39,424 bases of DNA, taken from positions 1 to 39,424 of the forward strand of contig JAJFLB010000007.1 in assembly GCA_021772915.1 (NCBI GenBank), given 5' to 3'. Source of the stretch: Gammaproteobacteria bacterium. Lineage in GTDB: Bacteria; Pseudomonadota; Gammaproteobacteria; Xanthomonadales; SZUA-36. The position numbers and the translations under genes are program-made. The first letter of the stretch is position 1; each line of letters begins with the position of its first letter. The notes below the pieces were generated by a model. That model did not search any database. It saw only the letters and a list, made by a program, of their open reading frames with translations, and was not told the origin of the DNA. Below are positions 3,757 through 39,404 of the stretch, piece by piece.

Positions 3757-4018
3757 ATATCTACCAACAGTGGATGAGTTTTCAGACGTTGTTGATGAGA
3801 TGCTATGGGATTTTCAAGGTCTGTTTGAGGCTATGAGCGTTCACGGACTGTCCGACAAGACGTTTCGTATTTGCTTGTTAGATATGCCCAAATGGAAAGC
3901 GTTTTGCAAGTTAGTCGCGAATGGTTTGGAAATCAAAAGTACAGTCGGTCGCGTTGCGATTTTATACGCACGGGAATACAACCAGGGCAATCAAGGAACG
4001 GCAGATGTCAGGACTTAG
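3746..4018 (+). CDS. Hypothetical acidic protein, 90 aa
   Basis: Not recognised. A mainly helical, acidic protein without membrane or zinc motifs. ATG at 3746 (or 3740) lies inside the end of the FkbM-like gene, and the gene end overlaps the portal start at 4005. The tight overlaps on both sides show it belongs to the head operon. Some phages carry small head proteins or inhibitors at this place, but no such function can be read from the sequence. Confidence 0.55.
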   Translation: MNDKYLPTVDEFSDVVDEMLWDFQGLFEAMSVHGLSDKTFRICLLDMPKWKAFCKLVANGLEIKSTVGRVAILYAREYNQGNQGTADVRT

Positions 4019-5564
4019 TAACCCAATGGGCTGGCTGGTTGATTGGTTTCGCAGGGATACAGGTAAAGGGAAAGTGCCTGTTACCAACGATTCCATGTTG
4101 AGTATTCCAGAAGTGTTTTTTTGTATTCAGTCGATATCGGGTGACGTTGGGCAGATGCCCCTTGCGCCCCATAAAGTGTACGAGCAAGCCAGAGATGGCA
4201 GGGCGGCTCGTGGGTCTACGGCAGACCTGAATCACACAACGTGGAGACTGTTACGGGATGAACCTAACAAGGTGCAGACCTCGGACGTGTTCAAGGAGTT
4301 GCTGCAAAGTCACGCCCTTGGATGGGGTAACGGCAGAGCGGCGATTATCCGAAACGGTGCAGGTGCTGTTACCGAATTGCTTCCAATGATGCCAGACCGA
4401 ACGGGAACGGTAATGGTGATGGGTGTTAAGTATCACGTAACGTGCCCGACTGAAGATGACCCGGTTCGCTTTCGAACTATCGCCCAGGAGATCATCGAAG
4501 GAAAAACAATTCCACGCGACTGGATCGTTTTGAATGATGAAGATGTCCTGCACATTATGGGGTACAGTCGTAATGGGTTTATCGGGTTGAACCTGGCAGA
4601 CCTTGCAAAGGATTCGATGGGTACGGCGTTGGGCGGGCAGCGGTACTCACGTACTGGAATGGATAAGGGGTTTGCAGGCCGGTTGATGTTGACGGCGCCA
4701 CCAAACGCATTCAAGACGGAAGATGACGCAAAGAAGTTCCTGACCAACTTTCGGGAGCGGCACGAAAACAGCAAGGACGGCGAAACGGTTGGCCTGTTGC
4801 GAGAGGGGATAACGGCAGACGTATTGCAAATGTCAAACGTCGATGCCCAGATGATTGAGCAACGTCGATTCAGCCGACAAGATGCTATGTTGTGGTTTGC
4901 CTTGCAACATCTACCCGGTGATGATTCCAGCGTCAGTTACAACAGCCTGGAACAAAAGCTACTTGCTCACCGGGCGTCAGCGTTGAATCGATGGCTCACA
5001 CGTTGGGAGATGCAATGTGACGCCAAACTACGGACGGAAGCGGAGAAGGCAGGCGGGCAGTTGTTCTATAAGTTCAACCGTGCGACGACTCTCGCAACGG
5101 ACACGGCGACAAGTGCGGAAGTATTATCGAAGTTACGCATGGCAAAGATCATCACGCAAAACGAAGCACGGGATAAACTCGACATGAATCCCGTAGAGGG
5201 CGGGGATGAGTTCGAGAATCCCGCCACGTCTACAGCGGCACCCGTACCACCACCAGAAGAGCCAGATGACAGCGAAGCGATGGCCAAGATACAATCGATG
5301 GTAGCACTTGAAGCGAAGCAGGTTGCCAACGGTGCGAAACGTCCAGGCAACTTCCTTAATTGGTTGGATAAGCACTACGCCAAATGGTCAACGAAACTGG
5401 AACAGGTGGCTGTAGAGTTTGGGGCGGACGTGGAAACAGTATCGGACGATTGCGAGTCTCGACGGCTTGCCGTTGTTGAAGCCTGTGATTGTAAGGACAA
5501 TGAACTTGTCGAGAGTGTCGGCAAGGTGTGCGAAACGTGGAAATCAATAGAATGGGGTGTGTAA
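4005..5564 (+). CDS. Phage portal protein
   Basis: Forms the twelve-subunit ring through which DNA enters and leaves the head. The 519-residue product shows HK97-family portal patterns: SIPEVFFCIQSISGDVGQMP near residue 28, HTTWRLLRDEPNKVQT, then ELLQSHALGWGNGRAAII, and a long region ending in a Pro/Glu-rich flexible tail (APVPPPEEPDD). ATG at 4005 has AAGGA eight bases upstream; the longer open frame back to 3921 has no support. The gene overlaps its upstream neighbour and ends beside the protease. Length is in the normal family range. Confidence 0.9.
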   Translation: MSGLSNPMGWLVDWFRRDTGKGKVPVTNDSMLSIPEVFFCIQSISGDVGQMPLAPHKVYEQARDGRAARGSTADLNHTTWRLLRDEPNKVQTSDVFKELLQSHALGWGNGRAAIIRNGAGAVTELLPMMPDRTGTVMVMGVKYHVTCPTEDDPVRFRTIAQEIIEGKTIPRDWIVLNDEDVLHIMGYSRNGFIGLNLADLAKDSMGTALGGQRYSRTGMDKGFAGRLMLTAPPNAFKTEDDAKKFLTNFRERHENSKDGETVGLLREGITADVLQMSNVDAQMIEQRRFSRQDAMLWFALQHLPGDDSSVSYNSLEQKLLAHRASALNRWLTRWEMQCDAKLRTEAEKAGGQLFYKFNRATTLATDTATSAEVLSKLRMAKIITQNEARDKLDMNPVEGGDEFENPATSTAAPVPPPEEPDDSEAMAKIQSMVALEAKQVANGAKRPGNFLNWLDKHYAKWSTKLEQVAVEFGADVETVSDDCESRRLAVVEACDCKDNELVESVGKVCETWKSIEWGV

Positions 5565-20990: not shown

Positions 20991-21205
20991 GCGACGAATA
21001 TATCAGCGTGCGAATGACGAAATCGGAGTTCGCCGGGATTGTAGCGGCGGCAGAAACCTTGTCGTTAAACATTGACGGACCAGACAAGGGGAGGATTGCA
21101 GGTTATTGCCAGGCGGTGATTAACCGACGAATAGATGATGTGACTGACAGTTTTGCCTCCACAATCGAAATGTGTATCAACCAGAAAAAGGTGATGGAGC
21201 CATGA
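20987..21205 (+). CDS. Hypothetical protein, 72 aa
   Basis: Not recognised. A small helical protein with no special motif. It starts with ATGA overlap and ends with ATGA overlap on the NinG-like gene, so it belongs to the same operon. Confidence 0.5.
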   Translation: MSDEYISVRMTKSEFAGIVAAAETLSLNIDGPDKGRIAGYCQAVINRRIDDVTDSFASTIEMCINQKKVMEP

Positions 21206-21663
21206 ACGAAGCAGCAGCACGGAAAGCCGCCAGAACGAAGATGATGAATACCGCAAAGACGATGAACAAGACTAAGTACATGCGGGATTATGTGGCGAAG
21301 TCGTGGCAGGAATTGGTTCGACTCCGCGCGGCTGACGAGTTCGGGTGGGTGACGTGTGTGACCTGCGGAGTTCGCAGTCAGTGGAACAACTACATGCAGG
21401 GAAGCCACTACAAACAAGGGCGACGAATGTCGAGTCTGGTTGACCCAATGAACTGCCACCCGTGCTGTAACACTTGTAATAAAAACAGCGGTTCACTGGA
21501 CAAGTTCGCGATATTCATGGCGGGCAAATACACACAAGAAGAACTGGACGCATTGGATCGGAGGCATAATTCGACGGTCGAGTACAGCCGGGAAGAACTG
21601 GTGGAAATGAACCTGGCGTTCAAGAAGGAAGCCAGGGAGATTAAAGCAAGGTTGAAAAGTTGA
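21202..21663 (+). CDS. ninG: NinG/Rap-like recombination protein
   Basis: A 153-residue protein with the NinG layout: a basic helical start, then CVTCGVRSQWNNYMQGSHY at about residues 50-68, where C..C and GSHY match the family, then NCHPCCNTCNKNSG at about 83-96, closing the zinc site and an HNH-like core, and a helical tail. In lambda NinG/Rap is a Holliday-junction nuclease that helps recombination and replication. Its place behind a RecE-like nuclease fits. ATG at 21202 overlaps the previous stop. Confidence 0.82.
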   Translation: MNEAAARKAARTKMMNTAKTMNKTKYMRDYVAKSWQELVRLRAADEFGWVTCVTCGVRSQWNNYMQGSHYKQGRRMSSLVDPMNCHPCCNTCNKNSGSLDKFAIFMAGKYTQEELDALDRRHNSTVEYSREELVEMNLAFKKEAREIKARLKS

Positions 21664-21742: not shown

Positions 21743-22348
21743 ATGGCTAATGGATATTCTATCCCCCCAAAACTTTCTGGTCTATCACATTGCACATTTT
21801 CTGATTGCGGACTTCCTGCAAGGAGCCGCGGTCTTTGCCAACGTCATTACCACAAGTGGCGAAAGTACGGAGACCCGTCTATGGGTGGCCCGCCATTGGG
21901 TCGCACAAAAGAGTTCCTGAAGGAAACGATCAGCAACCATCAATCGGGCTGTGTTACATGGCCGTTCGCTACGTCGAGAGGGTATGCGTACATGATGTGG
22001 AAAGGTCGGTACCAGAGCGTTTCAAGGTTGGTATTGAAACTGACTGTTGGCGAGCCGCCATCTCCCGACATGGAAGCGGCTCATAAATGTGGACAAGGAA
22101 GCGCTGGTTGCATTAGTCCAGACTGCCTCTACTGGGCCACTAAACAACAAAACCTGAATGACAAAGAACGTCACGGGACAATTCCGCGTGGCGAAATGTC
22201 TGGCATGTCAAAACTGACACTGACAGAAGTTCTTGCAATCCGAGAGGATACCCGGAAGGGAACGATTATAGCGGCGGAATACGATATAAGCCGAGCACAG
22301 GTATCGAGAATAAGGTCAGGGAAAACATGGTCGCACTTGAATGAATGA
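21743..22348 (+). CDS. HNH homing endonuclease (I-HmuI/phage type)
   Basis: A 201-residue free-standing endonuclease. An N-terminal zinc-like region (CTFSDCGLPARSRGLCQRHY, residues 17-36) is followed by SGCVTWPFATSRGYAYMMWK, typical of phage HNH proteins, and by the HNH core EAAHKCGQGSAGCISPDCLY with the next N in KQQNLNDKERHG. The C-terminal part (KLTLTEVLAIRED then SRAQVSRIRSGKTW) is a helix-turn-helix like the DNA-binding end of such homing enzymes. A very good ribosome site (AAAGGAG) lies before the ATG. Such genes spread by cutting unoccupied sites in related phages. Confidence 0.82.
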   Translation: MANGYSIPPKLSGLSHCTFSDCGLPARSRGLCQRHYHKWRKYGDPSMGGPPLGRTKEFLKETISNHQSGCVTWPFATSRGYAYMMWKGRYQSVSRLVLKLTVGEPPSPDMEAAHKCGQGSAGCISPDCLYWATKQQNLNDKERHGTIPRGEMSGMSKLTLTEVLAIREDTRKGTIIAAEYDISRAQVSRIRSGKTWSHLNE

Positions 22349-22660: not shown

Positions 22661-23353
22661 ATGAATAAGGTAGCGAATCGGCTCGAACAACTAGAAGCCG
22701 AAATCGAGAGCGGGTGCGGCGAAATCGCCAAAGCATTGACCGCGATCCGTGACGGGAAACTGTATGTCGATGGCTATGGTACCTTCGAAGCGTACTGCAA
22801 ACAGCGGTGGAATTTCACCGATCGGCACGCCAGAAACTTGATCGATGCCGAACAGGTCAGGGCCAAAATCGGAACAATAGTTCCGGTCCGGGGGTTAAAC
22901 AGCTTACAGTTGCTGGAAATTGGGAAGGCACCTGTAAAGCAGCAAGCGCAGATAGCGGCTGAGGTTATCGAGCAATGCGAGGCAGAGAATCGCAAGCCAA
23001 CGGCAAAGGACTTCAAGAAGAAAGTTGGACCTGTCGAGGCAAAGCCAAAGCCCGAGCCAAAACCGCCAAAGGAAAAGGTATTCAAAGCCGATGCCAAAAT
23101 GCGGGAAATGTACGTCGATGCCGAGAACAACGAAGTCCCGGAGTCGTTGTACCCTGTTTGGCGGGATGTCGCGGCGTTTCACACGATCCACACCATACTC
23201 AGGGACGCGGCGGCAAAGGTCCAAATCATGGAGCATGGCCCTGGGGGAGACTTTCTCGACGGGGAAGGCGACCAATTGCTTGCACTGGCTGAAGTAATCT
23301 TCGCATCGAGACCTTATCTGGTGTCCGGAGACGAATGGAGCTGTGCTAGGTGA
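22661..23353 (+). CDS. ParB/KorB-like DNA-binding protein, 230 aa
   Basis: The N-terminal third has AIRDGKLYVDGYGTFEAYCK and RWNFTDRHARNLIDAEQVRA, a pattern seen in phage and plasmid regulators in which a helical DNA-binding segment reads F..YC..RW....R...LI.A. A Lys/Pro-rich linker follows at about residues 125-145, then an acidic helical C-terminal domain. It could regulate the next gene or act in replication. Good ribosome site (GGAG). Its stop overlaps the GTG of the helicase gene. Confidence 0.6.
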   Translation: MNKVANRLEQLEAEIESGCGEIAKALTAIRDGKLYVDGYGTFEAYCKQRWNFTDRHARNLIDAEQVRAKIGTIVPVRGLNSLQLLEIGKAPVKQQAQIAAEVIEQCEAENRKPTAKDFKKKVGPVEAKPKPEPKPPKEKVFKADAKMREMYVDAENNEVPESLYPVWRDVAAFHTIHTILRDAAAKVQIMEHGPGGDFLDGEGDQLLALAEVIFASRPYLVSGDEWSCAR

Positions 23354-25812
23354 ATCTCGACAGACCCTATCAAACGCGAACCATCGAAGCCATCCGGAAG
23401 CAGATCGGACTAGGCAAGCGGCGTATTCTGGTTGCTGCTCCCACTGGTTGTGGGAAAGGGTACATCGCGTCCAGGGTGATGGAAATGTGCCGGGAAAAGG
23501 GGTCTCCAAATGTTTTCTTCGCGGCCCAAAGGGAGCTTATCTACCAATTGCAGGCCCAACTTGACCGGCTGACTGTTCCGAGTCGGGTGATAATGGCCGG
23601 TGTCAAAGACGAATTTCACTCATACGACGAAGCTGATACCGATTGCTGGCTGGTTGCAAAAGACACATTGAATGCCAGAGCGTTTCAGCGGTCCAAGATT
23701 GCCCCTCCTGCGGCAAAGCTGATTCAGGTCGATGAAGCACACCAGAGTCTAGCCGACGTGTATCAGGCGATTATGGGACACTACAGCGATAGCATTGTGC
23801 TTGGCTGGACGGCTACCCCATGCCGGACGGATGGGAGAGGGCTAGGGGAATACTTCGATTGCATGATTCAAGCGGTGACATACTCAGAACTTCAAAAGGA
23901 TGGATGGCTGGTCCCTGTTCGGGTGTTTGCTCCTGATCGGCCGGACCTGAAAGGCATGAAGGTATCGAGGGGTGATTACGCCAAAGGGCAACTTGAGAAA
24001 CGAATGAACCGGGATGAGATGGTCGGTTCGATTATTGAGGAATGGAAAAAGAACGCGAACGACCGTCAGACAGTGGTATTCGCTTCGGGTGTCCAGCACT
24101 CGATTCACATCCGCAACGAGTTTCTGAAAATAGGCGTGCCGTGTGAACACATTGACGGGAAGATGAAAACGGACCAGCGAGAGGAAGTCATGGCTGGTGT
24201 GCGGGACGGGTCCACAACTGTCGTCTGCAATTACGGGGTGATGACAACGGGGGTTGATGTTCCAAGCCTCAAATACATGGTTTGTGCCAGGCCAACAAAG
24301 AGCTTTCTGTTGTGGCGGCAAATGGGCGGGCGGATTCAGCGGCCGGCAGACGGGCACGATCATTGCTGCATAGCCCGCGGCTCTTTGGTTCTGACTGACC
24401 GCGGCAACGTACCGATCGAAGATGTTAAATTAGACGATCTCGTTTGGGATGGGGTTGACTTTGTGTCGCACTACGGCATACTGTACAAAGGGACGCAAAC
24501 CGCGATAATGTACAGCGGGCTAACAGCAACGCCAGATCATAAGGTACTGACAGATGAAGGATGGAAGACAATTGCCGCGGCGGCTGGTCGCAACAAGCGG
24601 CTTGTTAGAGGATCGATTGGTAGGACTCCGGTACGGGTGTCTGACCATAGCAACCCGCACGATTCAAGGCCGCGGTGCACAGATGGAAGTAGAAGTGGAT
24701 TGCTCGCAATGTGGGGAACGTTCGTTGATTCACTTTCACAACTTGGAGCGGCGGCAACCAGTGGATTGCAAATGTTGCCGTCCGGTTTGGGGCGAACACT
24801 GCCCAGAATGGCTCTATCGACGCGTTGCCCACCAATTCCGTCGATGCACCGACCGGAACGACATTGGATATTCGCTTTACGGCGGGCGGGGAATAGAGTT
24901 TCGTTTCAAGACAGTTTACGAGGGTGCGTGCTGGATAGCGGAACATCTTGGAATTCCAAAGAAGAACCGGAATATCACGATCGACCGGATAAACAACAAT
25001 GGGCATTACGAGCCGGGCAATCTGCGATGGGCAACTCACAGCCAGCAAATGAAAAACCGCGAACCGTTCATTCGAAAAAATTCACGGTATCGCAAATTCC
25101 TTGCCGAGTACCCGGACGTGGAATACGACAAAAACTATCTCGGAGTGCTATTTCGTCAGGGCTTAACAGCTCAACAGATTGCGGAACGATGGCGGTCGAA
25201 GTTTTTGATATCGTCAACTGCGGACCACGATCCCGATTCTGCGTGAATGGGGTGATCGTCGCGAATTGCATCCAAGATCACTCGGACAACGCTTTGCATT
25301 TTGGATTCCCCGACGAGGATGTTGAATGGTCGCTGGCGGCAAAGGACAGGGCACAGGACTTGCCACGGACAGAACGGAATTCGGTAGAGACAGATGAGCT
25401 GACAGTCAAAGACCCGTATGCTTGTGAAAAGTGCGGGGCCAAGTATCGCGGCCCTCATTGCCCCGCCTGCGGTCACATCCCGCAAAGATCGGGTAAAGAA
25501 GTCGGGATGTCCAAGGGTGACTTGAAAGAGCTGGAGCGGTCCAAGTGCAACGCTGCGGCGACTCCAATGGACAAACAAAAGACTTGGGACGAGTGCCTTG
25601 GGTGGGCTGTTGGTACGAACAAGAAGGTCGGTGCGGCTGCTTGGCGGTATAAGGACAAGTACGGGGTGTTTCCGAATTCACGTATTCAGAACACTCCACG
25701 GAACAGCCAATGGCAGATGATGGCGCGGGACTTCTACCGGGAAGTGATTAAACCAGCCAAGGAACAGAACAAAAAAGAGTTCGCGTTGTTTGGATCTTCA
25801 GAAAGGGATTAG
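23350..25812 (+). CDS. DEAD/DEAH-box (SSL2-like) helicase with intein
   Basis: A superfamily 2 helicase precursor of 820 residues, 520 after splicing. Motifs in order: APTGCGKGYI (Walker A, about residues 30-39), QVDEAHQS (DEAH, about 126), LGWTATPCRTDGRG (motif III region), VVCNYGVMTTGVDVP (motif V) and LLWRQMGGRIQRP (motif VI, about 321-333). A few residues later the intein starts at Cys340; the extein resumes with CIQDHSDNALHFGFPDE at 640, the strand that normally follows motif VI (in relatives: DC-I-DH-GN---HGFPDED). A zinc knuckle (CEKCGAKYRGPHCPACGH) comes after. It should remodel or open phage DNA. GTG start coupled to the previous stop. Confidence 0.88.
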   Translation: MNLDRPYQTRTIEAIRKQIGLGKRRILVAAPTGCGKGYIASRVMEMCREKGSPNVFFAAQRELIYQLQAQLDRLTVPSRVIMAGVKDEFHSYDEADTDCWLVAKDTLNARAFQRSKIAPPAAKLIQVDEAHQSLADVYQAIMGHYSDSIVLGWTATPCRTDGRGLGEYFDCMIQAVTYSELQKDGWLVPVRVFAPDRPDLKGMKVSRGDYAKGQLEKRMNRDEMVGSIIEEWKKNANDRQTVVFASGVQHSIHIRNEFLKIGVPCEHIDGKMKTDQREEVMAGVRDGSTTVVCNYGVMTTGVDVPSLKYMVCARPTKSFLLWRQMGGRIQRPADGHDHCCIARGSLVLTDRGNVPIEDVKLDDLVWDGVDFVSHYGILYKGTQTAIMYSGLTATPDHKVLTDEGWKTIAAAAGRNKRLVRGSIGRTPVRVSDHSNPHDSRPRCTDGSRSGLLAMWGTFVDSLSQLGAAATSGLQMLPSGLGRTLPRMALSTRCPPIPSMHRPERHWIFALRRAGNRVSFQDSLRGCVLDSGTSWNSKEEPEYHDRPDKQQWALRAGQSAMGNSQPANEKPRTVHSKKFTVSQIPCRVPGRGIRQKLSRSAISSGLNSSTDCGTMAVEVFDIVNCGPRSRFCVNGVIVANCIQDHSDNALHFGFPDEDVEWSLAAKDRAQDLPRTERNSVETDELTVKDPYACEKCGAKYRGPHCPACGHIPQRSGKEVGMSKGDLKELERSKCNAAATPMDKQKTWDECLGWAVGTNKKVGAAAWRYKDKYGVFPNSRIQNTPRNSQWQMMARDFYREVIKPAKEQNKKEFALFGSSERD
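24367..25266 (+). mobile_element. Intein in the helicase (300 residues)
   Basis: Protein splicing element between extein residues 339 and 640. Block A starts CIARGSLVLTDRGNVPIEDV; block B contains GLTATPDHKVLTDEGW with the TxxH signature; blocks F and G read VEVFDIVNCGPRSRF then CVNGVIVAN, followed by Cys+1. The last residue Asn639 is present, but the penultimate residue is Ala instead of the usual His, and the block F His position is Arg. The middle (about 24630-25188) reads in this frame as Ser/Arg/Pro-rich, low-order sequence, as expected if it mainly serves to keep the frame open. The same DNA carries an endonuclease gene in the +1 frame. Confidence 0.85.
24554..25246 (+). CDS. HNH homing endonuclease nested out of frame in the intein
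   Basis: A complete 230-residue HNH protein in the +1 frame relative to the helicase. Residues 18-60 have the common opening of phage HNH proteins (LVGLRYGCLTIATRT, then C..C...). The catalytic part shows YGGRGIEF near residue 109, WIAEHLGIPKK, and IDRINNNGHYEPGNLRWAT near 143-161 with the Asp, His and Asn of the motif. The ATG lies two codons after an in-frame TGA (24548), so this gene has its own start; AAGGT is a weak ribosome site. The first codons overlap intein block B and the last overlap block F. Confidence 0.85.
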   Translation: MKDGRQLPRRLVATSGLLEDRLVGLRYGCLTIATRTIQGRGAQMEVEVDCSQCGERSLIHFHNLERRQPVDCKCCRPVWGEHCPEWLYRRVAHQFRRCTDRNDIGYSLYGGRGIEFRFKTVYEGACWIAEHLGIPKKNRNITIDRINNNGHYEPGNLRWATHSQQMKNREPFIRKNSRYRKFLAEYPDVEYDKNYLGVLFRQGLTAQQIAERWRSKFLISSTADHDPDSA

Positions 25813-38042: not shown

Positions 38043-38371
38043 TGGCACTGATAGGCAGGCTATGCTCCTGTGGTCGTGTGGTTCACGGGAAGTGCGAGCA
38101 TTGCAGGAAGTTCAAGCAGGCCAGCACACAAGACTACCGTTTGACACCGGCAGACCGTGGCTACGATCAGGAGTGGCGAAACCTATCAAAGCGATTCAGG
38201 CAAGCTAACCCACTGTGCCAACTGTGCGAATCAGAAGGGCGTACAACGGTGGCAAGTGAAGTTCACCATAAAATACCAATACGGCAACGGTTCGACTTAC
38301 GCTTGACCTGGAGCAACCTGGTGAGTGTTTGCGGGCCTTGTCACGAAATACTGGAGAGGCAAAGTGGTTGA
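38042..38371 (+). CDS. HNH endonuclease, packaging-associated
   Basis: 109 residues. First C..C/C..C pair (CSCGRVVHGKCEHC), then GYDQEWRNLSKRFRQANPLC, the standard opening of HNH proteins found next to terminase genes, followed by CQLC, VHHKIPIR (catalytic His-His region) and NLVSVCGPCHE. In HK97-type phages such enzymes are needed together with the terminase for cutting packaged DNA. If the genome is circular or terminally joined, this gene lies just before the small terminase. Confidence 0.88.
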   Translation: MALIGRLCSCGRVVHGKCEHCRKFKQASTQDYRLTPADRGYDQEWRNLSKRFRQANPLCQLCESEGRTTVASEVHHKIPIRQRFDLRLTWSNLVSVCGPCHEILERQSG

Positions 38372-39404
38372 AAAGGAAATGAGAACGTGCCCAGGATGTA
38401 CGGGTCACTTCATGTGCAGGCCAAAGGCAAAGCAGGTTTATTGCTCGAAAGAGTGCCGATGGAAGAACGGCGTAGCGTCACATGGCGAGCGATGGGCGGC
38501 AACAGACTGCCCGCGATGCCAAAAGCCCAACATGACCAAAAACAAGTATTGTTCGAAGGCGTGCGTCAAGAATCCGCCAAGGTGCGTTGATTGTGGTGTT
38601 GTTAAGGGGCGTGGGCGGGATCGCAAGCGCTGCGTGAAGTGTTATGGAATATCAAGGAGGGGGCGACCAGGCGGCGTTTACTTTGTCAGGACGTGTGGTG
38701 TGTGCGGCGTAAAGTACAAAAAGCAGAAGTCGTTGAAGTACAAGAACCACTACTGTTCGAACGCTTGCCGGGGAGTTGCCAAGTCCGAGAGGGCGAAGCG
38801 TGAGAGGCAGCTGCTGCCAGAGACGCAAAAGGTGCTATTCAGGGCTATCGAGTGCATTGACTGCAAGGTGGTGTTCTTCAGTAAGGCTATCCGAAAGCGG
38901 TGCAGTACGTGCAAGCGTGAGCGAGAGAAGCAGCACAGCCGCAAAAAGTTGGCTAAGTACCAAGCATCAGAAGCCTATCAAGAGTACCTAGCTGCCAAGC
39001 GTATGCCAGTGACTATAACGTGCAAATGGTGCCGCAAAGATACGGCGTTTGATAGGGGCGGAAGCAGGATTAAGTTCTGTAGCCATAAGTGTAGCCGGAA
39101 ATCGGCTAGTTGGAATCGAAAACAACTTGAAAGGGCGACATCAGGAGGTGTGGTTCTATCTAGGCGAGAGATATTTAATCGAGACGACTGGAAATGTCAG
39201 TTGTGTGGCATCACCGTTATTCGCGTAAACAATCGAGGTGCATACCGGCCAGACGGAGCAACGGTAGATCACATCATCCCCCTATCGAGGGGTGGTACGC
39301 ATACAATGGACAACGTGCAGGCGGCGTGCTGGGCGTGCAATACATCCAAAGGGGACACTATGCCTGAAGTGTATGGCAGCATACGCGCCCCGGTCAGAAT
39401 GTAG
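38364..39404 (+). CDS. HNH nuclease with six tandem zinc knuckles
   Basis: A 346-residue protein. Six consecutive Cys-rich modules each have the layout C..C...(9-15)...C...C (for instance CPGCTGHFMC, CPRCQKPN, CGVCGVKYKK, CIDCKVVFFS, CKWCRKDT) with basic linkers, and the C-terminal part is an HNH domain: IFNRDDWKCQLCG, ATVDHIIPLSRGGTHTMDN and CWACNTSKGD. Such a chain of small zinc sites suggests an extended DNA-binding arm. GTG at 38364 has GGAGAGG upstream and overlaps the first HNH gene; an ATG lies at 38379 and GTG at 38325. Confidence 0.82.
   Translation: MVEKEMRTCPGCTGHFMCRPKAKQVYCSKECRWKNGVASHGERWAATDCPRCQKPNMTKNKYCSKACVKNPPRCVDCGVVKGRGRDRKRCVKCYGISRRGRPGGVYFVRTCGVCGVKYKKQKSLKYKNHYCSNACRGVAKSERAKRERQLLPETQKVLFRAIECIDCKVVFFSKAIRKRCSTCKREREKQHSRKKLAKYQASEAYQEYLAAKRMPVTITCKWCRKDTAFDRGGSRIKFCSHKCSRKSASWNRKQLERATSGGVVLSRREIFNRDDWKCQLCGITVIRVNNRGAYRPDGATVDHIIPLSRGGTHTMDNVQAACWACNTSKGDTMPEVYGSIRAPVRM

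Follow-up and report, generated by a model that had tools for sequence, protein, structure and literature searches.

A phage helicase intein with an HNH homing-endonuclease-like gene nested in its +1 frame, and its relatives in phage and bacterial genomes

The window, that is, the whole stretch of 39,424 nucleotides that we analyzed (positions 1–39,424 of JAJFLB010000007.1, assembly GCA_021772915.1, Gammaproteobacteria), is part of contig C57 of a 4.68-Mb assembly of 71 contigs. Because terminase, portal, major head, and tape-measure genes are present in it, it represents a phage or prophage contig. One of its ORFs encodes a helicase precursor interrupted by an intein, and a second ORF, similar to HNH homing endonucleases, lies inside the intein in another frame. 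The coordinates of the helicase ORF, the intein, and the nested ORF, first proposed in a sequence-only reading, were right when we re-read both frames. The features are the following:

23350–25812, plus strand: helicase precursor ORF, 820 aa, GTG start, carrying the intein
23350–24366 and 25267–25809, plus strand: exteins of the helicase, with a gap-free joint relative to the Baldr helicase
24367–25266, plus strand: intein of 300 residues, Cys1 to Asn300, with Cys as the +1 residue (splicing blocks, AlphaFold, Foldseek)
24367–24636, plus strand: N-terminal splicing block, intein residues 1–90 (C1, T55, and H58 invariant; pLDDT 96–98)
24541–24544, plus strand: putative weak Shine-Dalgarno-like AAGG, 9 nt before the ATG at 24554 (duplex energy −4.0)
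24554–25246, plus strand: nested HNH homing-endonuclease-like gene, 230 codons, ATG start, +1 frame (phrog_374, AlphaFold)
24637–25176, plus strand: host-frame insert, intein residues 91–270, predicted disordered, near-neutral and stop-free
25177–25266, plus strand: C-terminal splicing block (F and G), intein residues 271–300 (D281, G286, and N300 invariant; pLDDT 90–97)

The host protein matches the Pfam families ResIII (E 2.9e-20) and Helicase_C (E 7.3e-13). The Helicase_C domain ends at residue 331, immediately ahead of the intein, which corresponds to precursor residues 340–639 (Cys340 at 24367; the codon of Asn639 ends at 25266 and is followed by Cys640). An intein-less homolog exists in Pelagibacter phage Baldr, and the window exteins align with this helicase with no gap at the joint. 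A search of 299 related genomes with the N part of the helicase returned the window and three distant matches. The complete N- and C-terminal splicing blocks previously recognized (Cys340, a TPDH block B, and Cys640) are indeed present in the helicase frame. Block B reads TATPDHKV and block F reads VFDIVNCGPRSRF, the names of the blocks (B, F, etc.) being those that we take to apply to this intein. The N-terminal cysteine and the TxxH motif of block B, both characteristic of inteins, are therefore in place. At the C end, Asn300 and Cys+1 are present, and the penultimate residue is an alanine (VAN^C), not a histidine. Among the 91 loci of the set described below that have a clear C end, this position is occupied by His in 62, Ser in 24, Ala in four including the window, and Phe in one. 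Some inteins splice without a penultimate histidine.

The nested HNH ORF lies entirely within the intein, in frame +1 relative to the helicase. In its frame, a TGA (24548–24550) and a single CAG codon precede the ATG at 24554, and its stop codon (25244–25246) falls within the FCVNG codons of the helicase frame. Two frames are thus open across the same about 690 bases. The encoded protein consists of two CxxC pairs, an HNH core, and a helical C-terminal tail. It belongs to an HNH sequence family on the basis of its PHROG matches, phrog_374 (HNH endonuclease, E 1.1e-23) and phrog_3377 (E 1.5e-17); neither a Pfam match at E 0.1 nor an NCBIfam match at E 0.01 was obtained. The AlphaFold model of the protein has a mean pLDDT of 86, and a Foldseek comparison of this model with PDB folds gave no match at E 0.001. 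Among 200 related genomes, the HNH protein retrieved its own match and two weak ones, none a close relative.

The position of the HNH start is uncertain and is the weakest point of the mechanism proposed below. Across the set of relatives, a duplex energy of −6 or lower was found at 27% of candidate HNH-frame starts, compared with 23% for the remaining frames. Half of the HNH loci (45 of 90) have an ATG at Cys+145, frequently accompanied by a strong Shine-Dalgarno sequence, but so do 10 of 11 HNH-less inteins (the reference motif was located in 90 of 104 HNH loci and in 11 of the 13 HNH-less loci tried). As the signal barely exceeds that of the other frames and the Cys+145 ATG is shared with HNH-less inteins, an HNH-specific ribosome-binding signal is unsupported as a general rule. 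The HNH protein might instead be made as a fusion to the N part of the intein, through a programmed +1 frameshift close to block B in place of internal initiation. The weakness of the internal signal in the window and the HNH frames of several relatives, which are open far upstream of block B, are in line with such a fusion. However, the HNH frame of the window is closed by the TGA immediately ahead of ATG 24554, so that any frameshift must occur after 24550, and we consider the fusion improbable.

The helicase frame was said to stay open through the HNH gene, and this observation is far from trivial. When the HNH frame of the window was shuffled synonymously, holding its amino acids and codon counts fixed, the host frame acquired 9.7 stops on average and none of 1,000 shuffles was stop-free; the observed number is 0.

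With the HNH protein as the sole query, a single relative, L002, was found in IMG/VR. Here, too, a phage helicase contains an intein at the corresponding position, with an HNH ORF at +1 and a helicase frame open throughout; the HNH protein of L002 is 53% identical to that of the window and 110 residues longer. The intein N block used as query, which overlaps the HNH ORF in its first codons only, identified 23 loci, and a search with an N-block alignment gave matches in viral contigs, of which the best 80 of 536 were taken, and 31 in genome contigs. In total, 228 loci and the window were scored with profiles for the N block, the C block, and the HNH protein. An N block was found in 197 scored loci, 48 of which repeat another, leaving 149 distinct loci. 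The N and C blocks lie in one stop-free frame with the HNH at +1 in 115 of these, including the window. Seventeen others, mostly mini-inteins, have open N and C blocks but are not matched by this HNH profile, one has its HNH at +2, and in four, with the HNH at +1, the frame shared by the N and C blocks contains stops. No C block was recognized in the remaining 12: six show stops with the HNH at +1, two stops with the HNH at +2, two an open frame with the HNH at +1, one an open frame without HNH, and one stops with an HNH seemingly in frame. The two +2 cases (L029 and L032) proved on manual reading to have an open frame with a C block. The locus with the only apparent in-frame HNH is L227, whose N block is frameshifted, so that the HNH is not truly in frame. 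The ten loci combining stops and an HNH at +1 belong to, or resemble, the split class described below. The scores of L163 mirror those of L162.

Searches with the N block as the sole query account for a subset of 134 loci, or 109 distinct ones after removal of 25 duplicates. Open N and C blocks with the HNH at +1 were observed in 89 of them, and open N and C blocks without this HNH in 16, two of which (L024 and L026) harbor another HNH-like ORF at +2. This leaves L023, which is split, L046 and L084, in which no C block was seen, and L227. The layout of the window is hence no singular oddity but is shared by most members of this subset. Since extein clustering joined unrelated hosts, host families were assigned by Pfam on ten chosen hosts: three are helicases, four are PolA (L035 being slightly under the Pfam cut-off), and three have no match.

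An open host frame combined with a nested HNH was present in 158 loci, which reduce to 104 non-redundant ones below 80% HNH identity; the C end is unclear or placed too far downstream in 13 of these. The HNH lies at +1 in 103 of the 104, including the window, and at +2 in one. The nested +1 layout is common to about 100 divergent relatives. Together with L002, these loci bear out the proposal that the HNH is a gene of its own, for which the intein serves as a protein-coding carrier in a different frame. Over the 24,443 HNH codons of the 104 loci, 0 host-frame stops were observed against 1,113.5 expected from synonymous shuffling, a figure that gauges the improbability of such a result without host-frame selection and not the frequency of frame breakage, as an open host frame was the condition of entry. 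The third frame of the same loci contains 1,309 stops. The 104 include L042, which retains an HNH remnant, and L088, with one stop in the HNH; in six or seven other flagged loci, the stops are located before or after the HNH core.

As controls, we used all 29 loci without an N-block match from one set of 80. One of them, L148, turned out to be a rearranged member: it has a C block, and its host frame is free of stops across the HNH match. Of the 28 that remain, 26 are distinct (L192, L193, and L196 are identical over the HNH match); each of the 28 has at least one stop of the equivalent frame within that match and no C block nearby. Over their whole ORFs, 478 stops were counted in 6,346 codons.

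Substitution rates in both frames, a comparison that the sequence-only reading had called for, were estimated by classing substitutions according to their effect in the two frames. In five independent pairs with 75–90% HNH identity, omega was 0.09 in the HNH frame and 1.08 and 1.05 in the host frame. Four pairs of 90–97% identity, with few changes, gave 0.10 and 0.07 for the HNH frame and 0.74 and 0.47 for the host frame. In 60 more distant pairs, the host-frame dNN/dNS was 1.16–1.17, with HNH-silent changes saturated. Purifying selection acts strongly on the HNH frame. The insert as read in the host frame evolves almost neutrally, although it may be under weak constraint, given the values of 0.74 and 0.47 in the four closest pairs. 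Taken in both frames, omega indicates that the HNH protein is selected and that the host-frame insert is nearly free except for the avoidance of stops. The idea that the host-frame insert has a function of its own was also considered and set aside, omega being about 1 in the five pairs and exceeding 1 in the more distant comparisons, although the lower values in the four closest may reflect weak constraint.

These rates bear on the possibility that the HNH gene is a decaying passenger whose translation has been lost. Decay does occur among the relatives, as seen from the remnant in L042, the stop in L088, and the absence of the HNH from the close relative L208. However, HNH-frame omega is about 0.09 over the set, and the window copy is open for 230 codons and modeled with the mean pLDDT given above; a decayed gene in the window is unlikely, marginally more so than the fusion.

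The intein itself is identified by conservation and by predicted structure. C1, T55, and H58 are invariant in two alignments, A1 (20 rows) and A3 (45 rows), and D281, G286, and N300 are invariant in A3. AlphaFold applied to the host-frame intein with the 45 rows gave, in blocks of ten residues, a pLDDT of 96–98 for residues 1–90, 42–61 for residues 91–270, and 90–97 for residues 271–300. The ends of the intein are thus predicted to fold confidently and its middle to be disordered. A Foldseek search with this model returned inteins or intein-like domains at ranks 1–44 of the 50 matches listed (best E 6.8e-4), in agreement with a Hint fold. Similarly, a profile search of PDB sequences retrieved chains of the RecA (PI-MtuI) intein only, at E 0.005–0.026.

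Group I introns commonly contain HNH ORFs, and the record of Sodalis phage SO-1 notes a type I self-splicing intron for its similar gp38/gp39 arrangement. The insert of the window could accordingly be viewed as a self-splicing intron with an HNH ORF. Against this, no Rfam match to a group I or group II intron RNA core was found at E up to 1 over 23350–25812, the host frame is open throughout, C1, T55, H58, D281, and N300 are invariant in 45 rows, and the intein fold is predicted with confidence; an intron is very improbable. Still less credible is that two compensating frameshifts, biological or due to sequencing, displaced an ordinary in-frame HNH domain, which would yield the same layout in one sequence and has a possible starting point in the literature, where an intein with an HNH endonuclease was reportedly described by Dalgaard in 1997, yet is refuted by the relatives (L002, the 115 of 149 distinct loci, the same +1 offset in 103 of 104, and not one HNH truly in frame among 109, the only candidate being L227 with its frameshifted N block).

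The relatives also show variation in the content and the continuity of the intein. At the PolA site, the intein of a Ruminococcus phage (L036) has 140 residues and that of a Streptococcus phage (L030) has 309 residues with the HNH. The Streptococcus sciuri locus L208 shares 92% identity with L030 in its initial 304 nt and 94% in its final 98, and is devoid of the 522 nt (174 codons) that hold the HNH in L030; the net difference is a multiple of three and the host frame is kept. The simplest reading of this alignment is that L208 lost the HNH gene by one frame-keeping deletion. In L042, just an HNH tail is left.

Nine PolA loci (L023, L145, L150, L155, L162, L165, L167, L174, and L186) have a broken host frame. 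Their host ORF stops soon after the N block and is overlapped by the HNH open frame over 143–317 nt. A second ORF, which the HNH open frame overlaps by 29–110 nt, encodes the C block and the remaining polymerase and has a possible start of its own, in many cases preceded by a GGAG- or AAGGA-like sequence. Judged from their reading frames, these nine loci have the layout of a split intein with the endonuclease between the halves. They form one group in the HNH tree (100/98), which was built from 60 of the 104 nested loci, 9 split, 12 free, and 3 at +2, the free rows including L148, actually a rearranged member. As the root of this tree is arbitrary and its deep forks are weak, with unsettled bootstrap, the direction from nested to split remains a proposal.

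A different HNH subfamily is nested at +1 in APSE-1, Caulobacter phage RW, and Shewanella phage SFCi1, and the tree places it together with free-standing HNH genes, at a node (100/95) that unites six nested with three free rows. An HNH at +2 with an open host frame was observed in Sodalis SO-1, SETP3, Vibrio 97.13, Pseudomonas MR14, EBPR siphovirus 2, and Pubbukkers. The different HNH subfamilies and the two frames make it likely that nested HNH genes were acquired through several origins. Over 103 loci, N-block and HNH distances are correlated (Mantel r 0.395, 0 of 999 permutations as high), as expected if intein and HNH mostly travel together.

In our reading, which we hold to be very probably correct, the window carries a helicase intein whose N and C blocks enclose an overprinted gene for a homing endonuclease that is translated separately. 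Translation of the helicase frame would produce the 820-residue precursor, from which the folded ends of the intein would splice out 300 residues including the disordered loop, to leave a helicase of 520 residues. Internal initiation, probably at ATG 24554, would produce a free HNH enzyme of 230 residues. This enzyme would cut intein-less helicase alleles at the insertion site, directly behind the Helicase_C domain, and repair after the cut would copy the intein together with the HNH gene. We infer in this way the splicing, the separate translation, and the homing of the window system. Under such a mechanism, the DNA must give the HNH protein in one frame and merely no stops in the other. A broader generalization, on which we are evenly divided, is that there is a large group of phage inteins without in-frame endonuclease, whose mobility would depend on overprinted HNH genes that have their own starts and were acquired on more than one occasion, as the subfamilies and the +1 and +2 frames suggest. 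Natural split inteins that have an endonuclease between their halves would then be the outcome of a broken frame, and the insert would be selected only for the absence of stops.

If true, this third state of an intein, with an overprinted gene, would alter the annotation of such phage proteins. It suggests that intein mobility need not rely on splicing to release the endonuclease. The natural series of inteins without HNH, with a nested HNH, and split offers a test bed for the origin of fractured genes and split inteins. These loci are also a large natural set of overlapping genes, with one frame near-neutral but stop-free, on which tests for overlapping genes could be calibrated.

Inteins are usually described as a splicing domain with an in-frame endonuclease, or as mini-inteins without one (PMC11855218). 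The sequence-only reading had likewise stated that known inteins carry their endonuclease in frame, which is incomplete: nested out-of-frame HNH genes are already annotated in APSE-1 and SO-1, and phage ShiLan has an out-of-frame HNH without an intein (PMC11855218). Among the matches listed by our literature search, no paper deals with an intein carrying an out-of-frame endonuclease gene, and a 2025 preprint by Gosselin, Arsenault and Gogarten may describe such inteins. The HNH insertion of ShiLan interrupts a phage methylase and is devoid of intein motifs; its authors state that no intein or intron splicing elements were found and predict no splicing (PMC11855218). As in the window, the insertion is of about 200 codons, the host frame is open, and an HNH in another frame starts and stops near the insertion ends (PMC11855218). 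In contrast to ShiLan, where there is no splicing domain, the HNH of the window is flanked by intein blocks and its host is a helicase. Another out-of-frame HNH in a methylase is mentioned in a genome announcement (PMC12613952).

Also comparable to the window are APSE-1 P45/P46 and SO-1 gp38/gp39, in which an HNH CDS is annotated wholly within the DNA polymerase gene. We found intein blocks in the polymerase frame of both, with the HNH in another frame; the GenBank records give no intein. SO-1 differs from the window by its annotated type I intron and its HNH at +2, and the HNH of APSE-1, also at +1, is of another subfamily. Jersey-type Salmonella phages (e.g. HE775250) resemble the window by an intein in PolA, annotated as such. 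Their relative SETP3 has an HNH nested out of frame, in a record without annotation of the nested HNH. Unlike that of the window, the HNH is here at +2 and of another lineage.

Fractured genes, as reportedly described by Dassa in 2009, combine a split intein with a gene for an endonuclease located between its two parts. Their layout is matched by the nine PolA loci with a related HNH and not by the window, whose intein is in cis and whose frame is unbroken. Canonical inteins contain an in-frame endonuclease domain between blocks B and F. The intein of the window has the same splicing fold, but its endonuclease, encoded at +1, is not part of the intein polypeptide.

The window's intein-nested HNH has a counterpart at the +1 offset in the helicase intein of a second phage (L002). 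This HNH, encoded at 3980-5002, is 110 residues longer than that of the window, and the extra length looks like repeats of its own C-terminal unit. Across this added repeat-like stretch, the helicase frame of L002 does not close. Immediately 5' of the intein-bearing helicase, a free-standing ORF at 1769-2746 appears by eye to be HNH-like. The window itself has two more HNH genes, which lie outside the intein, and a junction endonuclease gene:

21743-22348, HNH endonuclease (phrog_59, E 1.8e-19)
38325-39404, HNH endonuclease (phrog_1271, E 1.5e-30)
21172-21663, NinG/Rap-like junction endonuclease (phrog_5034, E 9.9e-16)

In Sodalis phage SO-1 (NC_013600, gp38/gp39; locus L029), the element is labelled in the record as a type I self-splicing intron. 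The polymerase frame nevertheless contains intein blocks, and the label is probably a misannotation. A different HNH-like ORF lies at +2 within an open 326-residue intein frame at two loci, from 4258 in L024 and from 2107 in L026, beginning in both about 250 nt past the intein start; it perhaps represents another independent origin.

On the rearranged contig L148 (2883-4762), another ORF stands in place of the N part of the intein, and the overlapping frames of the HNH and the intein C part are retained. The PolA gene is split at the intein in nine loci (L023, L145, L150, L155, L162, L165, L167, L174, and L186), where the HNH ORF overlaps both PolA halves. They have the layout of fractured genes, and the HNH in them is a related one.
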